A DNA stretch of 64,000 nucleotides from assembly GCA_022842845.1 (NCBI GenBank), contig JALHOT010000003.1, forward strand, positions 248,001-312,000, in the 5' to 3' direction. This DNA is from Cyclobacteriaceae bacterium (GTDB lineage: Bacteria; Bacteroidota; Bacteroidia; Cytophagales; Cyclobacteriaceae). Positions 34,035 to 57,892 of this stretch are shown here, piece by piece (within the stretch, counting starts at the first letter, position 1; each line of letters begins with the position of its first letter). Below the pieces are notes generated by a model that saw only the letters and a program-made list of their open reading frames with translations, was not told the origin of the DNA and ran no database searches. Position numbers and translations under genes: made by a program.

Positions 34035-35381
34035 CTACAGCTGCCGTCTTTTCTTAAAGCGATCGTTGTGCAACGTACCCTCTTCAATCGAAATTTTTAC
34101 CGGCACTTTAAAGCTCTGCATTTTCTGTTTACAGAAAGATTTCAATTCACGAATAAATTGCGCCTTATCAAGCTCTTTACTTACCAATACTTTTGCACAA
34201 ACAATGTTTCCAGTGAGGGGATGCTTTTCTCCATATACTGTAACGTCAACAACGTTTTCAAATTCTAGTATTACGTTTTCAACCTCCTGAGGATATACTT
34301 TCTCTCCGCCTACATTAATGATTTCAGACTTCCTTCCCAATATTTTAAGATACTCACCATCCTGTTCAACGAAGTCACCCGTAATAAAATATCCATCTTC
34401 CGTGAAGGGACTGGGTGCGTTTAAATATCCTAGCATAGCAGAGTCGGCTTTGATCTGTAATATGTTTTCTACAACTCTCAATTCAAAACCTTCACCTCCT
34501 ACCTTCACCCACAGTGAATCATCACTCTTCGATTTTGAGCGAAGGACTCCTAACTCAATTAGTCCATACGTTTGTTGAAATTGAATATTACTGAAGATGG
34601 CCTTCGCTTTGGTAAGTGTGGACCCTGGCATGGGCTCGGTGCCATAGGTAATCAATTTAAGACTGCTCAAATCATACTTCTTATATACTTCACTTAAGAT
34701 CAGCAGATTAAGGAAGGTTGGTGACGTTGGTAGCAATTCAATTTTATGCTTTTCAATGAATTTGCAAATCTCCTCGGGCTTACGGTCTTTCGTAGCCAAC
34801 ACCACACCTGCATTCGAAAGTGTGTGGAGCAGTGTGTTTAGTCCACCCCAGTGGTCAAACAATAGAAAGTTGACAGTGCGGAGTGCGGTTCGCTTTGCTC
34901 TGAATTTGTTCAGCAATTTAGTAAAGTCATGAACAGCGCCTTTAGGCTGTCCGGAGGTGCCCGATGTAAATAGAACCAGTCCGGGTACTTTACGGTCGTT
35001 CAGGGTCTTGTAATAATTGTGGTCAGCAATATTCTCTGTTTTGGAAATTGAGTACTGATCGGTAGTCACGTCCACAGAAATTATCTTTTCTACTTGAGCA
35101 ATGACAAACTTCTTTGTGTCCGACTCCTTTATCTCATAATTAAACGGAACGATGATATTCTGATTTTCAATCAATGCCATCAATAGGCAAATAGTAGTTG
35201 GTGTAAAATCGCCACGCAACGCAACCACCTCACCATTCTTCACCTGGTTATCTGAGAGGAATTGCAAGCTTCGTTTTATTTCATTCCTAATCCAGGAGTA
35301 ATCTAAGGTATGATCTTGCCAGATGATAGCTGGTGAACTTGCGTTCTCCTCAAATACGTTATTGAAAAAATCGATATGCAT
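34035..35381 (-). CDS. AMP-dependent acyl synthetase/ligase (ANL superfamily)
   Basis: LVLFTSGTSGQPKGAVHDFT; QQTYGLIELG; YFITGDFVEQDGEYLKILGRKSEIINVGGEKVYPQEVENVI. Confidence 0.92.
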   Translation of the reverse strand: MHIDFFNNVFEENASSPAIIWQDHTLDYSWIRNEIKRSLQFLSDNQVKNGEVVALRGDFTPTTICLLMALIENQNIIVPFNYEIKESDTKKFVIAQVEKIISVDVTTDQYSISKTENIADHNYYKTLNDRKVPGLVLFTSGTSGQPKGAVHDFTKLLNKFRAKRTALRTVNFLLFDHWGGLNTLLHTLSNAGVVLATKDRKPEEICKFIEKHKIELLPTSPTFLNLLILSEVYKKYDLSSLKLITYGTEPMPGSTLTKAKAIFSNIQFQQTYGLIELGVLRSKSKSDDSLWVKVGGEGFELRVVENILQIKADSAMLGYLNAPSPFTEDGYFITGDFVEQDGEYLKILGRKSEIINVGGEKVYPQEVENVILEFENVVDVTVYGEKHPLTGNIVCAKVLVSKELDKAQFIRELKSFCKQKMQSFKVPVKISIEEGTLHNDRFKKRRQL

Positions 35382-35390
35382 AAGCTGAAT

Positions 35391-36404
35391 TTAATATCTA
35401 ACAATTGCAGAACCCCAGGAGAGACCAACACCAAATCCAGAGATCAGTATAGTATCGCCCCGTTTTATTCTACCCGCTTCAACTGCATCCTTTAATGCTA
35501 TTGGAATGGAGGCAGATACCGTGTTGCCAATTTGGGCAATGTTAATAAAGACCTTTTCATCTGAAAGTTTTAGCGCCTTTACCAATGAATCAAGTGTTAG
35601 TTTGCTCGCCTGATGAAATACAAACAAGTCAATTTGTTCCAATGCAAGGTTGTTTCGCTTAAGCAGGTGTAGGATTTGTTTAGGAACGGTTTGCGAAATG
35701 AACTTCCATACGCCAAAACCATTCATATGTATGTTCTCCATCGACCTAACGTTTCCACTCATATCAGCAGTCTCCTCTTTCGTTATTTCAGAAATCGGGT
35801 TTCGTACACCCCCAGCAGGAATGTAAAAAGAGTCAAAGTCCTTTCCGGAAGACTCTAGTATTACGTCAATAATATTACTATCTGAATTTTCGGTGCGCTG
35901 TATAAAGGAAACTGCGGCAGCATCTCCAAAAAGAACTTTTGTTGACCTGTCGTTTTCGCCTATAAATTTGGAATATGTATCGGCATTTATCAGTAACACA
36001 TTATCAACAACACGTGTTTCTATTAATCCCCTGGCTATGGCAAGTCCGTAAACATAGCCAGAGCATGCAAGATTATAATCGAATGCCAGCAGCTGATGCG
36101 AGAGTTCAAAATATTTTTGTAAAAGGAACGCGTTAGAAGGCATAATAAAATCAGGGCTCTGTGTGCAGAAGATAATACCCTGAACTCTTGACTTATCTAT
36201 TCCAGAATTATCGAAAAATTTCTGTGTTGCTTGTATAGCTAGGTCAAGTGCTGTTTCATTTTTAGAGGCGATGTGCCGATTCCTTACACCTGATTTACTT
36301 TCAACCTTGTCAACATCCCAATCTGGATGTTTTTCTTTCAGCATTTGATTTGTTAAAATGCCTGCGGGCAAGTAGTATTCTATATGTTTTATTTCAACCG
36401 CCAT
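35391..36404 (-). CDS. 3-oxoacyl-ACP synthase III (FabH-like)
   Basis: LLAFDYNLACSGYVYGL (Cys), DLFVFHQASKLTL (His), INIAQIGNTVSASIPIAL (Asn), ISGFGVGLSWGSAIVRY. Confidence 0.93.
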   Translation of the reverse strand: MAVEIKHIEYYLPAGILTNQMLKEKHPDWDVDKVESKSGVRNRHIASKNETALDLAIQATQKFFDNSGIDKSRVQGIIFCTQSPDFIMPSNAFLLQKYFELSHQLLAFDYNLACSGYVYGLAIARGLIETRVVDNVLLINADTYSKFIGENDRSTKVLFGDAAAVSFIQRTENSDSNIIDVILESSGKDFDSFYIPAGGVRNPISEITKEETADMSGNVRSMENIHMNGFGVWKFISQTVPKQILHLLKRNNLALEQIDLFVFHQASKLTLDSLVKALKLSDEKVFINIAQIGNTVSASIPIALKDAVEAGRIKRGDTILISGFGVGLSWGSAIVRY

Positions 36405-37029
36405 TTATCATTTCATTGTTGATGAGCCTGGTGTATTCCTCTGTGATTACAAACTCTTTTCCGTGCCCAGGGTAAACTTTAAAACCTTTGAAATCACCTA
36501 AAATCTTGTTAACGGATTGATTCAGTAAAGGCAAGTTACCACCCGGGAGATCCGTTCTCCCAATTGTTTCACTGAAGATTAAATCACCAACGATAATATT
36601 ATTGTCAATTACGAAGGTAACACTTCCTGGGGTATGTCCTGGTGTATGAACTACAGCTATCTGCCTATCACCCAACCTAAATGAGGGTATTTGATCAATA
36701 AAACCATCAATAGCCGGAGTAGAAAAAACTCCAACTCCCTTTGCGAGTTTTCGGTAGAGATTAGCCTGTCCTACCAGTCGCTTATCCAATGAGTGAATAA
36801 AGAAGGGAAGATTATACTTTTCTTTGAACTGGGCCACTGCTCCTAAATGGTCGAAGTGAGCATGTGTATTGATAATGCCCTTTAATTTTATGTTCTTTTT
36901 ACCAAATGCATCATCTAAAACATCGAAATCATCGCCAGGATCTATAAGCCAACCCTCGTGCTCATTGTAAAGCAAATAAGCATTTTCATACCATTGCCCT
37001 ACAGTAACTTTATCAATGAATACTGACAT
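36394..37029 (-). CDS. MBL-fold metallo-hydrolase (glyoxalase II-like)
   Basis: INTHAHFDHLGAVAQF; VVHTPGHTPGSVTFVIDNNIIVGDLIF; VYPGHG. Confidence 0.9.
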   Translation of the reverse strand: MSVFIDKVTVGQWYENAYLLYNEHEGWLIDPGDDFDVLDDAFGKKNIKLKGIINTHAHFDHLGAVAQFKEKYNLPFFIHSLDKRLVGQANLYRKLAKGVGVFSTPAIDGFIDQIPSFRLGDRQIAVVHTPGHTPGSVTFVIDNNIIVGDLIFSETIGRTDLPGGNLPLLNQSVNKILGDFKGFKVYPGHGKEFVITEEYTRLINNEMINGG

Positions 37030-37751
37030 TACACTCCTCCCAAATAAATTATCTGCCCTGTTATAGCGCTACTTTCTGCTCGAATTAACCAGTCTGTAGT
37101 ATTCGTAACATCTGTCATCACTCCATATTGAGGTATTGCATTTCTTGACAAGACATCTTTTAGCGCTTGTTGATCGATCTGTGCTGAAAGCTCAGTTTCA
37201 ATAGCGGAAGGAGCCACTACGTTAACAGTAATGTTACTGGCGTATACTTCCTTCGCAAGGATTTCCGTATAGGTGTTAATGGCCGCTTTTGTAGTAGCAT
37301 AAATAGATTCTCCCTTCACTTTTAGTTTAGCCGCCATAGAGCCCATATTAATAATTCTTCCAAACTTGTTTCTTGCCATCAGTTTTACAGCCTCTCTACA
37401 AAATAGTATAACAGAGAAAACGTTTACCTGAAAGCTATGCGTAATCGTCTTTAAGGGAATCAAGAGCGCGGGTGAGAGTGTGGGGTTAATGGCTGCATTG
37501 TTTATCAGTATGTCAAGTCTACCATATTCTTTACGAATGGATGTAAACATTTCCATAATTTGTTTCTCATCGGCAATGTCTATACTGAAATGTCTGTAGT
37601 CATTACTTTCAATTGATGCCTGTGATCTGCTGCATCCGATAACTTTATAACCAGCCGAGAGGTAGTGTTTGGCTATATGTTCTCCAATACCCCTGCTGGT
37701 ACCTGTAACGAGAACAACTTTTTTTACTTCTGCGATCTCATTGCTCATCAA
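37029..37751 (-). CDS. SDR family oxidoreductase (FabG-like)
   Basis: VVLVTGTSRGIGEHIA; LINNAAINP; GSMAAKLKVKGESIYATTKAA. Confidence 0.92.
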   Translation of the reverse strand: MMSNEIAEVKKVVLVTGTSRGIGEHIAKHYLSAGYKVIGCSRSQASIESNDYRHFSIDIADEKQIMEMFTSIRKEYGRLDILINNAAINPTLSPALLIPLKTITHSFQVNVFSVILFCREAVKLMARNKFGRIINMGSMAAKLKVKGESIYATTKAAINTYTEILAKEVYASNITVNVVAPSAIETELSAQIDQQALKDVLSRNAIPQYGVMTDVTNTTDWLIRAESSAITGQIIYLGGV

Positions 37752-38025
37752 TAAGCTTGGTTATATAGTCAGCCAAGGTCTTAACAGTTTTAAAAGGGCT
37801 TGATTCCATAGACATAGCACGCTCGTCTGCAATAGAAAGATAGTTGCCTGTCTCTTCTTCAAGCTTTTGTTCAATAGACGTGATTAAATGTACCAGTCCC
37901 ATTGAATCAAGGATACTGTTTTCACCAAACAGCGAAGAATCTTCATTCTTCAAAACGGGTGTTTCCAAATCAATGTTCACTTCATCAATAGCTTCATAGA
38001 TTACCTTCAATACAACATCTCTCAT
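37738..38025 (-). CDS. Acyl carrier protein
   Basis: 95 aa; LFGENSILDSMGLVHLITSIEQKLEEE with DS phosphopantetheine-attachment Ser. Confidence 0.9.
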   Translation of the reverse strand: MRDVVLKVIYEAIDEVNIDLETPVLKNEDSSLFGENSILDSMGLVHLITSIEQKLEEETGNYLSIADERAMSMESSPFKTVKTLADYITKLIDEQ

Positions 38026-38034
38026 GGCATTTTA

Positions 38035-38739
38035 TTATTTAGTTGAATTCTTTGTGACTTCCCATTCTTGAATGATATCGGCCGGAACATCAATTTTATC
38101 TAACATTCTTGGTGGGTTACCTAGTACAAAAATGCCCTCCTTTACATCCTTTAGTATAAGACTTCCCATACCAACTTGTGCTCCTGGGCCGATTTCTACA
38201 TTTTCACCTATATTAGTGCCTGATCCTATAAAACTATACGGCCCCACTTTAACACCAGTGGTGGTGGTAATTGAAGAGCCCATTAAAGAACCTCTTCCAA
38301 TTAAATTGTTCACCGCTATAACACAACTCGCAGCAATAATGGCAAAGGATTCTATCCTTGTGTGATTAAATACTACCGTTCCGTAATGAATAATACAACC
38401 ATGTCCTACTTTGGCGGTTGAAAATACTTTGGCGGTTGGATGTATTAATGTTTCGAATCTTTCTTCTGGTAACTGAAGCGCTTCCAAAATTTTACTCCGT
38501 ATTATTCTTGTTCTGAATGATCCAATAGCAAAAATGAATTTCACAGAAGCGGGTAATGTTTTTGCTTTTGCAACGGGACCCAAAACAGGTATTTCCTTAA
38601 GTGAAGTTCCATGAAGCGCTGTGTTATCATCGAGGATGCCAATCACCTTGTATCTTGGTGATTTCTCATTTATGTCCTCAATCAATTCGTGAATTTCCCA
38701 AAAGGCATAGCCGCCACCGATTATAACAATTTCCTGCAT
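38035..38739 (-). CDS. NeuD/PglD-family sugar O/N-acyltransferase
   Basis: EIVIIGGGYAFWEIHELI; VIGILDD; left-handed beta-helix hexapeptides HPTAKVFSTAKVGHGCIIHYG...IGENVEIGPGAQVGMGS. Confidence 0.87.
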   Translation of the reverse strand: MQEIVIIGGGYAFWEIHELIEDINEKSPRYKVIGILDDNTALHGTSLKEIPVLGPVAKAKTLPASVKFIFAIGSFRTRIIRSKILEALQLPEERFETLIHPTAKVFSTAKVGHGCIIHYGTVVFNHTRIESFAIIAASCVIAVNNLIGRGSLMGSSITTTTGVKVGPYSFIGSGTNIGENVEIGPGAQVGMGSLILKDVKEGIFVLGNPPRMLDKIDVPADIIQEWEVTKNSTK

Positions 38740-38745
38740 ATTATT

Positions 38746-40632
38746 TTAAATCTTCTCTTTATTAAGAAATATGCGACACCACCACTCGAAATTCATAAAA
38801 GACCAAATCAAGAGCCGGTGATTTACATGATTATTGATATGGTCATTTACAATACTTTTCATATAGTCTTGGCTCACAAACTCTGACGACACTGTTTTAT
38901 TGTTCAACAATAACTCTTTAACGTAGTTAGCGTTTTCACCTCGGTACCAGCTTTCGTCTGGAGCAGAAAAACCTTGCTTTTTTCTATTGATGATTCTTTC
39001 AGGGATAAATCCCTCCATAGCTTTCCTCAATACATTTTTACCGTCATCAAACTCCTGATAGGCCTTCTTCTTCTTTTCGCTGTTTTCATCAATTCGCTTT
39101 CTGTTCTCTAGCTGCCCTAGCTTGTGTCTTACTGGAATTGTTTGAGCAAAATCAACTAAGTCATTATCAAGAAATGGGAATCTTTCCTCAAGGCCATTTG
39201 CCATACTTAGTTTATCACCTACTAAAAGAAGACCGGGTAAAAAGGTCTTTATCTCAAAGTATAAAGAATTGTTAATGTGTTGCTCAGGAGTATCGTAATT
39301 TAGAGATTTATTGAAAGTAAATACACGTTCAAATATTTCTCTTGGCTCTTCATTTCGTATTGACGATGCTACGTTAGGAACAAATAGTCTAGATCGATCA
39401 CCGTCTGGCACAAGTCTCTGCCAGAAGTCATAGTAATTATTAAAAAAATCTTTTTGATCAAGTGACTTAAAGACTCTGTAATAGCGCCATGGATAACCTC
39501 CGAATAGTTCATCACCCCCAGTTCCTTGTAAGCAAACTTTTACGAATTTACTTGCAAGTCTTGAGATATAATAGTTAGGATAACTCATGCCAACTCGTAA
39601 ATCTTCAAGGTGATAAACAAGTTTGGGCAAACTCCAACTCAAGTCACCAGCATTCATAACTTGTTCATAATGCTCGGTCTTGAAATGATTGGCCATTAAC
39701 TCAGCATCTCTTCTCTCATCGTAATTGGCCTCCACACCAGTCACTTCACTCATATCAAAGCCACATGTGAAGGTGGACAATCTATCCACTTGCTTGCTGG
39801 CTATCGCTGTTATAGAACCTGAGTCCATACCACCTGAAAGATAAGAGCCAACGGGTACATCAGCAATCATTTGACGTGTAACGGCCTGCTTAAATAACCG
39901 AGATGTCTCTTCTCTGGCATCTTCAAAGGTCATCTTCTCATCTGTCTTACTAAAGTCATAATCCCACCAAGAGCTATGTTTTACAGCTGTTGTGTCTTTA
40001 TTGATTTTCACAGTATTAGCGGGAGGGAGCATAGTCACATCCTTAAAAAGTGTGCGAAAACTGAAAAGATTTTGAAATGTAAAATACTCGTTGAGAGCCC
40101 CTGTGTCAATACTAACCTTAAAATCAGGATGTGCTATGATTGATTTAATTTCTGATGCGAAAACCAACGTTTTCCCGTTGTGCCAATAATATAATGGCTT
40201 AACTCCATAACGATCTCTGCTCAGAAAAAGTGTTTCTTCCTTGGTATTCCATGCAGCAATTGCAAACATACCATTCAGTCTTTTAAAAAAGGAGGGGCCT
40301 TGATAAGCCAACCCTTCACATATTACTTCGGTATCTGTAGTGCTGACAAACTCATGACCATTAGTTTTCAACTCCTGTTTCAATTCCAGGTAATTGTAAA
40401 TGCATCCATTAAAAAGAATTACCCACTCATTATTCTTAGAACTCATGGGCTGCGTTCCTTTGGGAGATGTATCTAGGATCGATAGTCTTCTATGCGCCAA
40501 TGCTACCCCTCTATCAATAAAATATCCCTCAGCATCTGGGCCGCGATGAGCTATTAGATCAGCCATTTTTTTTAAATGACTCTGACTAAAAAGTTCTCCG
40601 TTTAAATTAAATACTCCAGTAATTCCGCACAT
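38746..40632 (-). CDS. Asparagine synthase (glutamine-hydrolysing) family amidotransferase (second copy)
   Basis: MCGITGVFN; IAHRGPDAEGYF; YLSGGMDSGSITAIA; GTGGDELFGGYPWRYY. Confidence 0.93.
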   Translation of the reverse strand: MCGITGVFNLNGELFSQSHLKKMADLIAHRGPDAEGYFIDRGVALAHRRLSILDTSPKGTQPMSSKNNEWVILFNGCIYNYLELKQELKTNGHEFVSTTDTEVICEGLAYQGPSFFKRLNGMFAIAAWNTKEETLFLSRDRYGVKPLYYWHNGKTLVFASEIKSIIAHPDFKVSIDTGALNEYFTFQNLFSFRTLFKDVTMLPPANTVKINKDTTAVKHSSWWDYDFSKTDEKMTFEDAREETSRLFKQAVTRQMIADVPVGSYLSGGMDSGSITAIASKQVDRLSTFTCGFDMSEVTGVEANYDERRDAELMANHFKTEHYEQVMNAGDLSWSLPKLVYHLEDLRVGMSYPNYYISRLASKFVKVCLQGTGGDELFGGYPWRYYRVFKSLDQKDFFNNYYDFWQRLVPDGDRSRLFVPNVASSIRNEEPREIFERVFTFNKSLNYDTPEQHINNSLYFEIKTFLPGLLLVGDKLSMANGLEERFPFLDNDLVDFAQTIPVRHKLGQLENRKRIDENSEKKKKAYQEFDDGKNVLRKAMEGFIPERIINRKKQGFSAPDESWYRGENANYVKELLLNNKTVSSEFVSQDYMKSIVNDHINNHVNHRLLIWSFMNFEWWCRIFLNKEKI

Positions 40633-40639
40633 TGCAATG

Positions 40640-41653
40640 CTATTTACTTAAAATCATTTTTTTATAAAAAGCACGCAGGATGTCCCCGGGAGGGAATGTA
40701 TGTCCCCTATTTAGGTTATAGTACTCTACCTTTCCTGTATCCCTCAAGTAACTAAAAGTCTCAAGCGATTTATTCTCATATCCGTAGACAGGATTTTCAC
40801 TATCCTCCCAAGAAAAAAGATACTTTGTCTTACTTTGTGCAATCCCCCTCTTGATAAATTCCTTACTAAAGTAAGTCATTAGATTAGAGAAGATTGGTTG
40901 ATTCATTGTGGCATAGAATAATTCATGGAATAGTATGGAATAACCAGACGCCACAACAACAGCATCTGGTTTAGATAATAATGAAACCATTAAGGATGCA
41001 AATCCTCCTTGAGAAAGACCCACAACTATAACCTGAGAGTATTTAAGCTTTAGTGCTTTAATCAAAGCTACGATCTGAATAAAGTAGTTAGCTGTGTAAG
41101 ATTTCCCATTATTAATAAGTGTAGGGACTAATGCTGATTGGCTTAATTTATTAATTCCGTTATGGATCGCCAGAATATCTTCGTTTGGCTTTATGTATAA
41201 AAAAGAATCTCCCAATTCAGCATTTAGATCGAAAACGTTATCATACTCATTATGATAATTTGGTGCGCCATTATAAATCGCAGTACTTTGGTTATCCATT
41301 GATCCTGGAATCATCAGGATAGCAACCTCTGGATTCAATTTCCCCCTCTTGAAATAGGCAAATGACTCATCCCGTTTTTTTTTAATACTGAAGGAAACCT
41401 TAAACAAAGAATCAGTTATCAGTAACGCATCTTCAATTTTTGTCTTATCATAGGATGATTGAAGTTCATGATCTTCGAACGGGAATTTTTCCTTCAAGAA
41501 TAGACTAATTGATCTTATTGTTGTTATGCTATCGTAAACTAAGTTTGAGGAGATCAAGGGAGCATCAAATGCAGAAACTGCCCACTTATCCCTTGATTGA
41601 GTAAAAGATTCAAAACTTGTTAGCAGAATAACACAAATCAATAATCCCCTCAT
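40640..41653 (-). CDS. Secreted alpha/beta-hydrolase-like protein, function unknown
   Basis: Signal peptide MRGLLICVILLTSFESFTQS; VIVVGLSQGGFASLMVSLLSKP nucleophile-elbow-like GLSQGG; NRGHTFPPG late His. Confidence 0.55.
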   Translation of the reverse strand: MRGLLICVILLTSFESFTQSRDKWAVSAFDAPLISSNLVYDSITTIRSISLFLKEKFPFEDHELQSSYDKTKIEDALLITDSLFKVSFSIKKKRDESFAYFKRGKLNPEVAILMIPGSMDNQSTAIYNGAPNYHNEYDNVFDLNAELGDSFLYIKPNEDILAIHNGINKLSQSALVPTLINNGKSYTANYFIQIVALIKALKLKYSQVIVVGLSQGGFASLMVSLLSKPDAVVVASGYSILFHELFYATMNQPIFSNLMTYFSKEFIKRGIAQSKTKYLFSWEDSENPVYGYENKSLETFSYLRDTGKVEYYNLNRGHTFPPGDILRAFYKKMILSK

Positions 41654-42807
41654 AAATTCTTAAGGTGGTGAACCACATATTCATAGTCTGCAGCAGTCAT
41701 CCTATTATGAAGGGGAATGGCCATTGAGAAGTTATTGGCAGCCATTGCTCCTGGATAATCCTCTGCTTTAAAACCATACTTATTCTTATAAAAGTCTAAC
41801 ATATGAACTGCGTGAGTTCCAGGACGAGTAGAAATACCCACTTGCTGAAGCTTTTCCATTATTTCATTTCTTTTTAACGGAGCTATGCTTTCATCAATCA
41901 TTGTCACAAATGATTGCCAGCCATGTTGGTAGTCGCTCGTGAACTGAGGTAATTTCAGCCAAGGAATATTCCCAAGTTCCTTCTTGTAGTAACCAGCCCA
42001 TTGGTTTCTTTCGTCAATGAATTTGTCCAATTTCTTAATCTGAACTACGCCAACTGCTCCTTGAAGATCTGTCATTCTGTAATTGAATCCCATGAGATTA
42101 AATCCAGGCAAGATGTATGGCTTCGCTCCATGATGACGCTCCTCTTCGGAAATTGAGGCTCCGTGATTTCGAAGTGATTTAATAGTCTCTGCTAATTGAT
42201 CATCATTAGTAGTTACCATTCCACCCTCTCCTGTTGTGACAGATTTTCTTGGATGAAAAGAAAAACAGCCAATCGTACCGAGCCCACCAGCAGGCACACC
42301 TTTGTACCCGCTTCCTGCTGCACAAGCTCCATCTTCAATCAATGGAATATCTCCTGCAATTTCCTTTATTGCATCCATGTTTGCGCATAACCCAAAAAGA
42401 TGAACAGGTATGATTGCCTTTGTCTTCTTAGTGATTCTTTTCTTCAAGTCTTCCGGATCTATGTTGAAGGTCTTGGGATCTACATCCACGAAAACCACTT
42501 TGGCTCCTTGATACAATACGATATTGGCAGTAGAGACCCAGGTAAAAGCAGGCACAATTACTTCGTCCCCTTCTTTGACATTAAGGGCCACAACAGCTAA
42601 ATGTAAAGCGGTGGTTGCGCTTGTAACAGCCATTGCATGCTTTACTTTATGTCGTTCAGCAAAAAGATTTTCAAACTCCCGCACTTTCGGACCAGAAGTA
42701 AGCCAACCTGTCATTAAAGGCTCTTTAGTAGCTAGCCATTCTTCTTCACCAGTAACGGGGAGGGAAATGGGTATGTTTCTTTTATTCATATCAATCAATA
42801 TTTTCAA
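41650..42807 (-). CDS. DegT/DnrJ/EryC1/StrS family aminotransferase
   Basis: AMAVTSATTALHLAVVALNVKEGDEVIVPAFTWVSTANIVL; IEDGACAAGSGYKG; CFSFHPRKSVTTGEGGMV. Confidence 0.92.
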   Translation of the reverse strand: MKILIDMNKRNIPISLPVTGEEEWLATKEPLMTGWLTSGPKVREFENLFAERHKVKHAMAVTSATTALHLAVVALNVKEGDEVIVPAFTWVSTANIVLYQGAKVVFVDVDPKTFNIDPEDLKKRITKKTKAIIPVHLFGLCANMDAIKEIAGDIPLIEDGACAAGSGYKGVPAGGLGTIGCFSFHPRKSVTTGEGGMVTTNDDQLAETIKSLRNHGASISEEERHHGAKPYILPGFNLMGFNYRMTDLQGAVGVVQIKKLDKFIDERNQWAGYYKKELGNIPWLKLPQFTSDYQHGWQSFVTMIDESIAPLKRNEIMEKLQQVGISTRPGTHAVHMLDFYKNKYGFKAEDYPGAMAANNFSMAIPLHNRMTAADYEYVVHHLKNL

Positions 42808-43787
42808 TTAATTTTATCAACACCACTTGCAATTCTCCAATCAATTAATCTCTGAAGTCCCTGCTCCAAATTATATTGATGCGTAAAATTTAAGTCTTCG
42901 GTGGCTTTCTTAGCAGACCCTATTCTGTTTTTAACAAACTGTCTTGCATCATCTGGTGCATATGGCTCGTACTTCACCTTTAGGCTTGATTTTTTCAACC
43001 GGAGAATTGTTTCGCAAAGATCTTTAACGGTAGTCTGAACTTCGGTGCCCACATTATAGAAGCCACACTCGATCTTGCTTGTTAAAGCATTAACATTCGC
43101 CCTTGCGACATCTTCTACGTAAATAAAATCATAGGCTTGTGATCCATCACCGTTAATCACAGGGGTTTCATTAGCGGCTATCTTATTGAGCATGATGGGG
43201 ACTACTCCGGTGTAAACAGCATGCTGATCCTGGCCTGGGCCATAAACATTCATATATCTCAATCCAACCACTTTCAATCCGTAGCGATCGTTAAAGGCAG
43301 TACACATTGCTTCTCCTGCAATCTTTGTCGCTCCGTAAAAGTTCTTATTATTGAACGGATGCTCTTCAGTCATTGGCACCTGAACGGCATCTCCGTAAAC
43401 AGAAGCTGAGGAGGAATAAACCAATTTCTTTACCTTATGCTTAACGCAAGCTTCCAATACGTTAAATGTTCCAGCAATATTTACTTCAAAAGCAGTTCTG
43501 GGAAAGTCCTTGCAATGAAGCAACCACATAGCTGCTAAATGAAAAACATAGTCCATTCCTTCTACAGCTTTGTCGAGAATATCAATATCCTTGATGTCTC
43601 CGCCAAATGGAAAAACTGTGCACCGCGAGTCTTTTAAAAGATCGTTTATATTGTCCATTTTACCCCGAGCAAAGTTGTCATAAATCACAACTTCTTTAAT
43701 TGGATGTTTTAAAAGCTCGCGCACTACAAAGTTTCCTATGAAGCCGGAGCCACCAATAACCAATACTTTAGATCCTTTTAAATCCAT
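42804..43787 (-). CDS. NAD-dependent epimerase/dehydratase (GalE-like SDR)
   Basis: KVLVIGGSGFIGNFVVREL; YSSSASVYGDAVQ; FYGATKIAGEAMC. Confidence 0.9.
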   Translation of the reverse strand: MDLKGSKVLVIGGSGFIGNFVVRELLKHPIKEVVIYDNFARGKMDNINDLLKDSRCTVFPFGGDIKDIDILDKAVEGMDYVFHLAAMWLLHCKDFPRTAFEVNIAGTFNVLEACVKHKVKKLVYSSSASVYGDAVQVPMTEEHPFNNKNFYGATKIAGEAMCTAFNDRYGLKVVGLRYMNVYGPGQDQHAVYTGVVPIMLNKIAANETPVINGDGSQAYDFIYVEDVARANVNALTSKIECGFYNVGTEVQTTVKDLCETILRLKKSSLKVKYEPYAPDDARQFVKNRIGSAKKATEDLNFTHQYNLEQGLQRLIDWRIASGVDKIN

Positions 43788-43807: not shown

Positions 43808-44719
43808 CTAGTTTTTTTTTGTGCTGTTTATTCTAATTTGATGTGCTAATTCAATGGAAGGTCTTGCTTCTGTTAAACGGAAGCCATTACCTTTCAATAT
43901 TTCTTCATAGCTTTTAGTATGAAGATCAGTGAAACCATCACTGAATTCGATCTCTTCACCCTCCGTTCGTAAGGATCGGTATGTCCTTTTTCCTTGTTCT
44001 CTAAATTCTGCAGGAATGTGCATGTAATTGATGCTCAACATCCACTTTACTTTTGCTCTCTCTAATTCAATGAATCCTTCTGCCGAATCATCATCAACAC
44101 GAGTAACTTCATTTTTAACGACTCCTCCAAAAACCCATATTAACATATCAAAGAAATGTATACCAATGTTAGTCGCTATCCCCCCCGACTTGGATAAATC
44201 CCCCTTCCAACTAATTTGGTACCAATGACCCCGCGAAGTTATATAAGTTAAATCAACATCGTAAATCTTGTCCTTAGGGCCATTTTGGACTTTATTTCTT
44301 AAAGCAATGATACTAGGATGAAGCCTCAGTTGCAGGATGGTATTTACCTGTTTGCCTGTTTCTTTTTCGATTTCGCTAAGGGCGTCTACATTCCATGGAT
44401 TTAGCACCAAAGGTTTTTCGCAAATTGCATCTGCACCATGCCTAAGGGCAAAGCGTATATGTGAATCATGCAAGTAGTTGGGGGTACAAATCGTAACGTA
44501 ATCAATTTTGGTTCCTTGTCGCTTAAGCTTATCGAGATGCCTGTCAAATCGTTCAAACTCGGTGAAAAAATCACAGTCTGGAAAATAAGAATCCAATATC
44601 CCAACATTATCATGCCTATCTAATGCTGCGACTAAGTTATTCCCTGTGTCTTTTATAGCCTTTAAATGTCTTGGTGCGATGTATCCTGCTGCCCCAATAA
44701 GCGCAAAGTTCTTTTTCAT
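43808..44719 (-). CDS. wbpB: Gfo/Idh/MocA oxidoreductase, WbpB/WlbA-like (UDP-N-acetylglucosaminuronate 3-dehydrogenase)
   Basis: MKKNFALIGAAGYIAPRHLKAIKDTGNNLVAALDRHDNVGILDSYFP..FFTEFERFDRHLDKL closely resembles WbpB N-terminus; CTPNYLHDSHIRFALRHGADAICEKPLVLNPWNVDAL. Track start 44788; MKKNFALIG start preferred. Confidence 0.85.
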   Translation of the reverse strand: MKKNFALIGAAGYIAPRHLKAIKDTGNNLVAALDRHDNVGILDSYFPDCDFFTEFERFDRHLDKLKRQGTKIDYVTICTPNYLHDSHIRFALRHGADAICEKPLVLNPWNVDALSEIEKETGKQVNTILQLRLHPSIIALRNKVQNGPKDKIYDVDLTYITSRGHWYQISWKGDLSKSGGIATNIGIHFFDMLIWVFGGVVKNEVTRVDDDSAEGFIELERAKVKWMLSINYMHIPAEFREQGKRTYRSLRTEGEEIEFSDGFTDLHTKSYEEILKGNGFRLTEARPSIELAHQIRINSTKKN

Positions 44720-45044
44720 AGTGCCTGATTTCCAACCTAATCTTAGGTTATCCTCAATCTCAATTTTTAGATGACAAATAAGTTGCAAATATAATTGATT
44801 TGTTTATTAGTTCTCAATTCTATAAGAAATTCAGCAATAGTTCTAGTGAGAGTTTACGCTCTGATTTTTGTTTGGTTGGGCATTCAAGGCTGTTTTTCCT
44901 ATTGCCAATATTCATACTGCACACATCTGTCAATCAAATACTTGGGTAAAAAAATCAACAAAAGTTTTTGCTTTATCTAGAAAAAAAAACGTAAGATTGA
45001 ATTTATTCAATCTTTTAAAATCCCTTAGACGTAAAATTCGCTCA

Positions 45045-52001: not shown

Positions 52002-52580
52002 CTAGACTTTAAATACTCGGTTGTTACTTAGTTTATACTTATCATTACTCTCTTCACAAATAGCCTCTCCATTTTCATCGAACTTTAAACGATGCCCAAA
52101 CTCACTCATCCAACCGATTTGTTTTGCCGGATTGCCCACCACTAATGCGTAGTCGGGCACATGCTTGGTTACCACCGCACCTGCACCAATAAAAGCAAAT
52201 CTTCCAATATCATGACCACATACAATGGTTGCATTAGCTCCAATGGAAGCTCCCCTTTTTACCGTTGTTTTGGCGTATTGACCTCTTCTGTTAACGGCAC
52301 TACGCGGGTTAGTCACGTTTGTGAAAACCATGGAAGGCCCTAGAAAAACATCATCCTCACAAATTACACCTGTATAAATGGATACGTTGTTTTGCACCTT
52401 TACATTGTTGCCCAAAATCACTTCTGGTGATACAACAACATTCTGACCGATATTACAATTTTCTCCGATTTGACAATTTGGCATGATGTGGGAGAAGTGC
52501 CATATTTTAGTGCCCTTACCGATTTCACAACCCTCATCAACAATGGCCGAGGGATGAACTGAGTAGTCTTTTGATTCCAT
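52002..52580 (-). CDS. wbpD: Left-handed beta-helix acyltransferase, WbpD-like
   Basis: [87 protein letters not shown]. Confidence 0.87.
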
Positions 52581-52583
52581 TAC

Positions 52584-53711
52584 TTAACAAAAAAAATCTT
52601 TAATACAAGATACAATATAGTGCTGTTGCTCCTCCACCATTTCGGTATGAATTGGCAGCGAAATTACTTCCCTGGAAAGTGACTCTGTCAAAGGGAATGA
52701 ACCTTCTTCAAAGCCTGGTCTCTTATACGCCTTCTGCAAATGCAAAGGCACAGGATAATAAATCATGGTGGGAATGCCCTTATCTTCCAAATACTTCTTC
52801 AATACATCTCGCTGGCCGTTTTTAATTTTCAAAGTGTATTGATGGAATACATGCGTTGAATGAATGCTGCGCTTAGGTATTTCCAGATCATTGATGCTGG
52901 CTAATTCAGCATCGTAATAATTTGCAACCTTATTCCGAGCCTGTTCATATTCACTAAGGTAATTCAACTTTACGTTTAGGATCGCAGCCTGAAGGGTATC
53001 TAAACGACTATTTACTCCTATCACATCATGATGATATTTGATGCGCTGCCCGTGGTTGGCCATCATTTTAATCTTTTCTGCGAGTTCTTTGTCTCGGGTA
53101 AATAATGCACCACCATCACCGTAGCATCCCAGGTTTTTTGATGGGAAAAAGGAGGTCGTTCCTATAGTACCCATGGTACCTGCACGCATTTTTCTGCTAT
53201 CACTGAAAGTGTATGTAGCACCAAGCGCCTGTGCTGTGTCTTCAATTACATGAAGGTTGTACTTATTAGCTATTGCCAACAGTGGCTCCATATCAGCACA
53301 TTGTCCATACAAATGAACGGGAACAATTGCCTTTGTTTTAGTTGTAATTTTTGACGCTAGTTGGTTTACATCAATATTAAAAGTAGCGGCATCGACTTCC
53401 GTGAAAACGGGTGTAAGTCCCAACAGGGCAATTACCTCAGCAGTGGCCACATACGTATGAACAGGTAAAATGATTTCATCTCCTGGTCTTAAGTCAAGAG
53501 CCATCATGGCAATTTGTAGAGCATCTGTTCCATTGGCACAGGGGATCACGTACTCTACATTGTTATACTTTGCCAAAGCATCAGCAAATTGTTGCACTTG
53601 TGGTCCTTGAATGAAGGCAGTAGTATTTAAAACTTCCTGCATGGCAGCATCAATCTCAGGCTTGATTTTTTGATACTGCTTTTGCAGATCGACCATTACA
53701 ATCTTATCCAT
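52584..53711 (-). CDS. wbpE: DegT/DnrJ aminotransferase, WbpE-like
   Basis: MVDLQKQYQKIKPEIDAAMQEVLNTTAFIQGPQVQQF; PCANGTDALQIAMMALDLRPGDEIILPVHTYVATAEVIALLGL; TSFFPSKNLGCYGDGGAL. Confidence 0.85.
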   Translation of the reverse strand: MDKIVMVDLQKQYQKIKPEIDAAMQEVLNTTAFIQGPQVQQFADALAKYNNVEYVIPCANGTDALQIAMMALDLRPGDEIILPVHTYVATAEVIALLGLTPVFTEVDAATFNIDVNQLASKITTKTKAIVPVHLYGQCADMEPLLAIANKYNLHVIEDTAQALGATYTFSDSRKMRAGTMGTIGTTSFFPSKNLGCYGDGGALFTRDKELAEKIKMMANHGQRIKYHHDVIGVNSRLDTLQAAILNVKLNYLSEYEQARNKVANYYDAELASINDLEIPKRSIHSTHVFHQYTLKIKNGQRDVLKKYLEDKGIPTMIYYPVPLHLQKAYKRPGFEEGSFPLTESLSREVISLPIHTEMVEEQQHYIVSCIKDFFC

Positions 53712-55623: not shown

Positions 55624-56639
55624 CAGTTTATTGATCTAATTCTCTTTTCCCAATGCCAGGCATGCTGCAAGGCATCTTTAATAGTGAACCTTGGTTTCCA
55701 ACGTAAAACATTAAACGCAAGATTTGCATCTGCAAAAACCTTTGCCACATCACCTGGTCTTCTTGAGCCTATCTTATAATTTAACTTAATTTGGTTAACC
55801 TCTTCAAATTGATTAACCAACTCCTTAACTGATACCCCGAAGCCGGTGCCTACATTAAAAATATGATTGCCCAAATTCTGGTTTATGAAATCCAAGGCTT
55901 TTACATGAGCATCTGCCAAATCAGTTACATGAATGTAATCGCGTACACAAGTGCCATCAGGTGTAGGGTAGTCGTCACCAAAAATTGTTAATTGATTTCT
56001 CAAGCCAATGGCAGTTTGTGTGATATAGGGTACAAGATTATTTGGAGTACCTAACGGCAGTTCTCCAATGAGTGCTGATGGGTGAGCTCCTATGGGGTTG
56101 AAGTAACGAAGTGAAACAACATCAATGCCTAAAACTTCTATATCTTCCAGTATTCGCTCACACATTTGTTTGGTAGCTCCATAAGGAGAGTTCGCCTTCT
56201 TTATAGCTGCTTGCTCGTTAACCGGTACAGTATCAGGCTCCCCATAAACCGTACATGAAGAAGAGAAAATAAGTTTAGAGACCTTGTGCGATTGCATACA
56301 CCGCAACAAGCTCGTTAAAGAAAACAAGTTGTTCTCGTAGTAATCGAGCGGCTTCTCAACTGACTCACCAACCGCTTTAAAAGCAGCAAAATGAATGACT
56401 GCATCAATCCTATTATTGCTAAAAATCTCTGCTAAAGCATTGTAATTTCTGCAATCAACCTTCCGGAAAGGAATAGTAATACCCAGCAGATTCTTCAGCC
56501 CATCCAATAAACGCTGATCACTTCTCGATAGATCATCAATTATCAAAACATCATACCCAGCCTCAACCAGTTGAACCACTGTGTGCGAGCCAATATAGCC
56601 TGCCCCGCCTGTGACTGCTATGCGTTTTCTTATACTCAT
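55623..56639 (-). CDS. galE: UDP-glucose 4-epimerase
   Basis: [79 protein letters not shown]. Confidence 0.92.
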
Positions 56640-57892
56640 TATAAGCGCCCAGAAACGTGCTTGTCTTTCCAAATGCCCTTCACATCAAAAAGAACTGCGT
56701 TTTGATGTTTGATTTTTGACAAATCCAATGAAATAAATTCGTTATGAGAAACCGCCAAAACAATTGCATGGTATTGTTTACTAAGATTTGATATAAGTGT
56801 TAATCCGTACTCATGCTTGACCTCTTCTGCGTCCGCTTGAGGATCATAAATATCTACATTCGTGCCGAAGCTCTTCAACTCCTGGATAACATCAACCACC
56901 TTGCTGTTGCGTATATCAGGACAATTTTCTTTGAAGGTTATTCCTAAAACGAGGATATCTGCATTATGAACGGGCAGTTGGTTTTGCGCCATCAGTTTAA
57001 TAACGCGGGACGCAATGTGGGCGCCCATATTATCGTTAATTCTTCTGCCTGCAAGAATTACTTCAGGGTGGTAGCCAAGGCTTTCGGCTTTATAAGTTAA
57101 GTAATAAGGGTCTACTCCAATGCAGTGACCCCCAACTAAACCTGGTTTAAAAGGTAAAAAATTCCATTTGGTACCTGCCGCTTCCAGCACCTCGCTTGTA
57201 TCAATACCCACACGCTCAAAAATCATCGACAATTCATTAACAAAAGCGATGTTAATATCTCTTTGAGAGTTCTCAATTACCTTAGCTGCTTCTGCTACTT
57301 TTATAGAAGATGCCTTATGTGTTCCTGCCACAATAATTTTATTGTATAAAGCGTCAACTTCATCTGCGATTGCTGGTGTGCTACCACTGGTTACTTTCTT
57401 AATGGTAGTGACTCTATGAAGTTTATCGCCTGGGTTAATCCGCTCAGGAGAGTAGCCACAGAAAAAGTCTACATTAAATTTCAGGCCACTGACTTTTTCA
57501 AGAACAGGCACACACACTTCTTCCGTGCAACCCGGATAAACTGTTGATTCATAAATAACAATATCACCCTTCTTAAGTGCAGCACCGACTGTTTTACTGG
57601 CGCTTACCAGTGGAGAAAGATCCGGCTTTTTGTATTCATCGACTGGTGTAGGTACCGTAACAATGAAATAATTAACAGATTTCAGATCCTCAGGATTGGA
57701 TGAGTAACTCAGTTTAGTGGAGCGTTTTAACTCTTCTGGTTCAACTTCCAATGTTCTGTCGTGGCCCTTTTGAAGTTCATCTATTCTTTGTTTGTTAATA
57801 TCGAAGCCAAGTGTGTCAGCTACCTTTCCAAACTCTACTGCAAGAGGCAAGCCAACATAACCAAGGCCAATAATTCCAATTTTCTTTGTCAT
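56639..57892 (-). CDS. Nucleotide-sugar 6-dehydrogenase, WbpA/TviB-like
   Basis: KIGIIGLGYVGLPLAVEFGKVADTLGFDIN; YESTVYPGCTEEVCVPVLE; GYSPERINPGDKLHRV; GGHCIGVDPYYLTYKAESLGYHPEVILAGRRIND. Confidence 0.93.
   Translation of the reverse strand: MTKKIGIIGLGYVGLPLAVEFGKVADTLGFDINKQRIDELQKGHDRTLEVEPEELKRSTKLSYSSNPEDLKSVNYFIVTVPTPVDEYKKPDLSPLVSASKTVGAALKKGDIVIYESTVYPGCTEEVCVPVLEKVSGLKFNVDFFCGYSPERINPGDKLHRVTTIKKVTSGSTPAIADEVDALYNKIIVAGTHKASSIKVAEAAKVIENSQRDINIAFVNELSMIFERVGIDTSEVLEAAGTKWNFLPFKPGLVGGHCIGVDPYYLTYKAESLGYHPEVILAGRRINDNMGAHIASRVIKLMAQNQLPVHNADILVLGITFKENCPDIRNSKVVDVIQELKSFGTNVDIYDPQADAEEVKHEYGLTLISNLSKQYHAIVLAVSHNEFISLDLSKIKHQNAVLFDVKGIWKDKHVSGRL

Follow-up and report, generated by a model that had tools for sequence, protein, structure and literature searches.

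An acyl carrier protein cassette in a Cyclobacteriaceae polysaccharide locus and its probable role in amino-sugar modification

What is a set of genes for making and handling acyl thioesters doing inside a polysaccharide locus? This question is raised by a stretch of 64,000 nucleotides, hereafter the window, from a Cyclobacteriaceae bacterium (positions 248,001 to 312,000 of contig JALHOT010000003.1, assembly GCA_022842845.1; source genome 3.76 Mb in 47 contigs). At 34035-38739 of the window, six minus-strand open reading frames (ORFs) encode an AMP-binding ligase, a ketoacyl-ACP synthase III (KAS III), a metallo-beta-lactamase-fold (MBL) hydrolase, a short-chain dehydrogenase/reductase (SDR), an acyl carrier protein (ACP) and a hexapeptide acyltransferase. 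Our comparisons indicate that these genes probably form an exchangeable acyl cassette, which fills the amino-sugar-modification slot of an O-antigen or capsule locus. The product of the cassette is most likely an exchangeable short acyl group, perhaps a 3-hydroxyacyl group, for an amino sugar. The strongest evidence for such a product is that the adjacent sugar module recurs in relatives with other modules in the same downstream slot.

The sugar module and its downstream slot

With the AsnB-like amidotransferase next to the cassette as bait, matches were found in 12 of 297 genomes of the family, the window's own included, at 69-100% identity (69-77% in the 11 relatives). Beside AsnB in these relatives lie an aminotransferase (63-77% identical) and an epimerase-like gene (69-78%). 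What follows this sugar module, as seen in neighborhoods of at most 20 kb, varies. The acyl cassette is found there in the window and in two other loci, L052 and L080. Formyltransferases take its place in L098 and L101, and further down in L100; L095-L097 have a hexapeptide transferase, with or without a WbuX-like amidotransferase, HisH and HisF; L099 has a module made up of a PglD-like protein, KAS III, ACP and KAS III; and L102 and L103 have hexapeptide and FemAB-type genes. That is, most of the modules in the slot have predicted amine- or acyl-modifying functions. The window and L080 have sugar genes of 67-73% identity, but their KAS III proteins share 30% identity and fall on different branches of the tree.

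Because a constant sugar module has exchanged its downstream modules, the cassette would be expected to modify the amine that the aminotransferase supplies; no other argument for that assignment is as strong. The original prediction had counted AsnB as an addition to the acyl pathway. However, AsnB is constant while the genes downstream of it differ, and we therefore place it on the sugar side; it probably takes no part in the acyl pathway itself. The possibility that AsnB makes an acyl-group amide, as in malonamoyl starters, was rejected because AsnB tracks the sugar module and not the acyl cassette. The arrangement also has a practical consequence, in that the acyl group should be predictable and testable across otherwise matched loci, where the sugar module is constant and the modules downstream of it are exchangeable. 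Acyl groups on amino sugars help set O-antigen serotype, and antiserum reactions in Flavobacterium psychrophilum tie the two together (PMC6519341).

The genes of the cassette and of the sugar module are, in order of position:

34035..35381, minus strand: AMP-binding ligase, 448 aa; Pfam AMP-binding at 97 bits, A3/A5/A7/A8/A10 motifs conserved; proposed to activate an acid and load the ACP
35391..36404, minus strand: KAS III, 337 aa, by Pfam and NCBIfam; Cys114/His264/Asn294
36394..37029, minus strand: MBL-fold hydrolase of the glyoxalase-II type, 211 aa; full set of metal ligands
37029..37751, minus strand: SDR, a FabG-like 3-oxoacyl-ACP reductase, 240 aa; start probably ATG 37748; S138/Y151/K155
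37738..38025, minus strand: dedicated ACP, 95 aa; phosphopantetheine Ser41
38035..38739, minus strand: PglD/VioB-like hexapeptide acyltransferase, 234 aa; Val143 at the catalytic His position
38746..40632, minus strand: AsnB-like amidotransferase, assigned to the constant sugar module and not to the acyl cassette
41650..42807, minus strand: PseC/ArnB/LegC-like aminotransferase, by NCBIfam; proposed maker of the amino sugar to be acylated
42804..43787, minus strand: epimerase-like SDR of the sugar module; SSASVYG, without the Asp-Glu of 4,6-dehydratases

The identity of the sugar is read from families that score below their curated cutoffs. All six cassette ORFs were recovered as originally predicted, and Pfam and NCBIfam returned the expected families (AMP-binding, KAS III, MBL, SDR and NeuD/PglD hexapeptide). 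The genes are separated by gaps of at most 9 bp or overlap by 1-14 bp; read along the operon, they are a 9-bp gap, a 14-bp overlap, a 1-bp overlap, an 11-bp overlap and a 9-bp gap. The overlap of ACP and SDR is 14 bp if the SDR starts at TTG 37751, and about 11 bp if it starts at ATG 37748. AsnB ends 6 bp upstream of the cassette. Downstream, a gap of about 50 bp precedes the next gene; on that side lie a 418-aa protein without a Pfam match and then a Wzx.

Recurrence of the cassette

A scan with KAS III identified loci in two Bacteroidetes metagenome-assembled genomes, L006 and L007, whose KAS III proteins are 58-60% identical to that of the window. Searches at the level of order, class and family added L052 (genome G638), L075 (G1052), L076 (G858) and L080 (G1109), as well as looser relatives of the ligase in L077, L078, L079 and L081. 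The window, L006, L007, L052 and L075 all have the gene order ACP-SDR-MBL-KAS III-ligase, at identities of about 37-65%. Since the same arrangement of five genes is found in four Bacteroidota genomes besides that of the window, the cassette is more than a chance assembly. In L076 (3269-11588) and L080 (6880-14133) it is enlarged by extra genes between KAS III and the ligase, i.e., a MaoC-SDR fusion and FkbH (268-277 bits, cutoff 147), with a methyltransferase and a second ACP as well in L076. The MaoC-SDR fusion, FkbH and the second ACP are typical acyl-ACP enzymes, and the enlarged version is a probable pathway to a longer or glyceryl-type acyl group in the same slot. The cassette is nevertheless rare: the ligase was found at E<=1e-90 in 4 of the 297 genomes of the family, and four other members of the genus gave no such match.

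The original prediction had named a majority of homologous cassettes outside glycan loci as the result that would speak against it. Six of the seven core or enlarged cassettes (window, L006, L007, L052, L076, L080) lie in glycan loci, recognized by aminotransferases, a Gfo/Idh/MocA dehydrogenase, epimerase-like genes, glycosyltransferases or a flippase. This distribution favors the glycan assignment.

ACP, KAS and ligase genes also build natural-product pathways, however, and the cassette might instead make a free small molecule or lipid, such as a short acyl amide or a polyketide-like compound, in which case its position in glycan loci would be partly coincidental. Two loci are in line with this idea. 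L075 (8063-12631) has the complete five-gene cassette, with the ligase gene followed immediately by one for a GNAT. For about 8 kb in both directions it is flanked by no glycan genes; its neighbors include two ORFs that resemble a signal peptidase and a sigma factor, together with genes for a carbon-nitrogen hydrolase and a GH65 enzyme. In L077 (5330-11462), ACP, MBL, ligase and acyltransferase-domain genes occur together in a non-glycan setting. Given that six of the seven cassettes are in glycan loci, and that three of them stand directly behind the sugar module, in a slot for amine-modifying genes, we consider a free product very improbable. The genes of L077 adjoin a NACHT plus sulfatase-modifying-factor protein. 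A resorcinol-type pathway (dialkylresorcinol, DarB/StlD) was rejected, as the ketosynthase scored 49-55 bits against cutoffs of 450-550.

L075 and L077 do count against a role in amino-sugar modification, and so do three other points. First, the acyltransferase lacks the catalytic His of PglD, VioB and PerB in all four of the cassettes that encode it, as discussed below. Second, the epimerase-like protein of the sugar module lacks the dehydratase Asp-Glu, so that the source of the keto-sugar for the aminotransferase appears to be unaccounted for. Third, the substrate of the ligase, the acyl product and the role of the MBL protein are all putative.

Enzymes of the cassette and a proposed route

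Except in the acyltransferase, the active-site residues of the encoded proteins are preserved, including those that the original prediction had singled out in the ACP, KAS III and SDR. In the Pfam and NCBIfam scan, the ACP had no Pfam match and matched DltC only weakly. In an alignment, its Ser41 is invariant across 12 homologues. Its structural model is a helical bundle (predicted local distance difference test, pLDDT, of 91.5), and the nearest solved folds are mostly ACPs, with weak E-values (0.06 and above). C114, H264 and N294 of KAS III are intact and conserved; S138, Y151 and K155 of the SDR are invariant among the cassette copies; and the MBL metal ligands H56, H58, D60, H61, H132, D149 and H189 are intact, and invariant in four cassettes. 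The ligase has intact P-loop, TGD and A8/A10 motifs, with A3, A5, A7, A8 and A10 kept in four homologues of 59-63% identity; its profile gave no match in the PDB at E<=1e-30.

In the phylogenetic tree, the cassette KAS III and four other cassette KAS III proteins make up a clade of their own (support 100/100). Next to this clade stand KAS III proteins from glycan loci with PglD (91/84); the FabH copies of the genome itself lie apart from it. Other KAS III-type genes do exist elsewhere in the genome, and two of them, which are FabH-like, fall on separate branches. The whole genome has one ACP of the cassette type. A housekeeping role in fatty-acid synthesis was rejected on these grounds, i.e., the two FabH-type copies on separate branches and the single-copy ACP.

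We propose the following route. The ligase would adenylate a carboxylic acid and load it onto the dedicated holo-ACP, or else supply a coenzyme A (CoA) primer. KAS III would then add one C2 unit, and a 3-hydroxyacyl thioester would arise when the SDR reduces the 3-keto group. Transfer of the acyl group onto the amine of the nucleotide sugar that the aminotransferase produces would fall to the hexapeptide protein (in some relatives, to a GNAT), while the MBL protein would hydrolyze thioesters that are stalled or incorrect. Once acylated, the sugar would enter the repeat unit, to be flipped by the nearby Wzx-like protein.

The MBL and ligase genes occur together in 8 of the 11 loci examined, and VioB, PglD and GNAT relatives typically depend on CoA. 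Both facts would suit a switch of carrier, in which the MBL protein hydrolyzes the finished 3-hydroxyacyl-ACP and the ligase converts the freed acid to a CoA thioester for the PglD-like or GNAT transferase. Such a cycle would be wasteful of ATP, however. In addition, ACP-SDR-ligase sets that are uninterrupted and without MBL, as in L078, L079, L081 and Aeromonas, fit better with loading of the ACP by the ligase. We thus regard the carrier switch as improbable. Because some of these sets have no KAS nearby (L078; Aeromonas), we favor the ligase as the loader of the ACP, with KAS III as an optional extender.

That the PglD-like protein carries out the transfer, as originally predicted, fits its family and fold, but not its active site. 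With the Pfam domains PglD_N and Hexapep, the protein has the N-terminal domain and the left-handed hexapeptide helix of the family; it scores 140.7 bits with TIGR03570, under the cutoff of 160.8. VioB is its nearest sequence in the PDB, and a fold search with its model (medium confidence, pLDDT 72) gave VioB, PglB, PglD and PerB as the best matches. Thus, in fold and domain order it resembles the N-acetyltransferases PglD, NeuD, VioB and PerB. It differs from them, in a way that the original prediction had passed over, in the catalytic His, which is replaced in 4/4 cassette copies, by Val in the window (Val143), Ala in L007, Val in L052 and Pro in L080. VioB keeps this His, as do seven wfp-type PglD proteins from other KAS-containing loci, in a Gly-His-Asp motif. 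The equivalent residue, His142 in Pcryo_0637 and His125 in PglD, has been described as the likely base, and the Asp pair of the PglD-type enzyme binds the UDP-sugar (PMC8040287). The cassette proteins have an invariant pair, Asp37-Asp38, that matches Asp35-Asp36 of PglD. They also have a new invariant His118, which is absent from the other proteins compared. Judging from these residues, the cassette enzyme may transfer without that base, His118 may substitute for it, or the protein may have another role.

If the protein does have another role, a different enzyme, or an O-linked acceptor, would take the acyl group. The loss of the His in four cassettes speaks for this alternative, and so does L006, which lacks the PglD-like gene altogether. 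On the other hand, the window, L007, L052 and L080 have all conserved the gene immediately ahead of the ACP, with the Asp pair invariant, and a GNAT is found at or near its position in L006, L075, L076 and L078; the latter suggests that the PglD-like protein and the GNAT provide a single, interchangeable transferase function. We therefore consider the alternative, a transferase other than the PglD-like protein, unlikely. The cassette acyltransferases are a natural set of His-less PglD-like enzymes in which the use of acyl-ACP can be studied.

Comparison with published systems

Related systems in Pseudomonas, Flavobacterium and Aeromonas were compared through their published descriptions, not by direct sequence alignment. 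The viosamine island of Pseudomonas syringae consists of vioA, vioB, vioS (KAS III), vioR (reductase) and acp; its product is N-(3-hydroxy-1-oxobutyl) viosamine, and deletion of vioR leads to the loss of acylated viosamine (PMC3927599). Like the cassette locus, this island and its counterpart in P. aeruginosa PAK combine an aminotransferase, a NeuD/PglD-type acyltransferase, KAS III, a reductase and a dedicated ACP. Unlike the cassette, the island has a methyltransferase and no listed AMP-ligase or MBL protein, and the cassette transferase lacks the VioB-type His. In Flavobacterium psychrophilum, the O-antigen R-group genes wfpC-wfpG encode ACP, KAS, a 3-ketoacyl-ACP reductase and a PglD homologue, are proposed to acylate a 4-amino sugar, and vary among strains (PMC6519341). 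They share with the cassette a Bacteroidota O-antigen locus and the logic of ACP, KAS, reductase and PglD, but have two KAS genes and, as read by their authors, yield a 3,5-dihydroxyhexanoyl group, with no mention of a ligase or an MBL protein. The KAS III proteins of similar two-KAS loci fall in neighboring clades of our tree, outside that of the cassette.

In the group II flagellar islands of Aeromonas, orf1-orf3 encode an ACP, a 3-oxoacyl-ACP reductase and an AMP-dependent synthetase, and the islands also contain luxE and luxC (PMC7874193); enterobacterial islands have similar sets (PMC4875605). The order of ACP, reductase and synthetase is that of the cassette, in which MBL and KAS III are inserted before the ligase. 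The Aeromonas islands differ in having LuxE and LuxC, which are not next to the cassette, and no KAS III, MBL or PglD-type transferase is named for them. A search of the available literature for MBL genes in glycan loci of this type turned up no relevant paper.

The cassette thus has the hallmarks of the viosamine and wfp systems, namely adjacent genes for ACP, KAS III, a reductase and a NeuD/PglD-type transferase in a glycan locus, with a sugar aminotransferase (41650-42807). Both the gene neighborhoods and these precedents back the original proposal of a dedicated ACP pathway for the N-acyl group of a glycan amino sugar. Its further claim of an undescribed pathway holds in part. Kits of this kind are already known, and the ligase gene alone was rejected as a novelty, since ACP-reductase-AMP-synthetase sets have been published (PMC7874193, PMC4875605). 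What is new is the combination of ligase, MBL and a single KAS III, and the loss of the His in 4/4 acyltransferases. Absent from the published systems compared are the MBL protein, a single KAS III together with a ligase, a transferase without the His, and the slot behind this sugar module. More tentatively, and with considerable doubt, one can imagine a distinct, His-less, PglD-like acyl-ACP:amino-sugar acyltransferase fed by a ligase-primed, single-KAS ACP line with MBL editing; this would provide a surface amino sugar with a hitherto unseen acyl group, the whole line being a plug-in swapped for formyl, acetyl or amidine modules.

The base composition of the cassette (39.4% GC, versus 39.2% for the window) gives no sign of recent import. 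Between the aminotransferase and AsnB, the window encodes a 337-aa protein without a Pfam match (40640-41653), with an alpha/beta-hydrolase-like GLSQGG motif; a counterpart of 37% identity is found at the same place in L095, and none is found there in L052 and L080. Elsewhere in the window, at 43808-44788, 52002-53711 and 56639-57892, are genes for a Gfo/Idh/MocA dehydrogenase, a hexapeptide acetyltransferase, an aminotransferase and a protein similar to UDP-N-acetylhexosamine (UDP-HexNAc) 6-dehydrogenase, which look like those of a 2,3-diacetamido uronic acid pathway.

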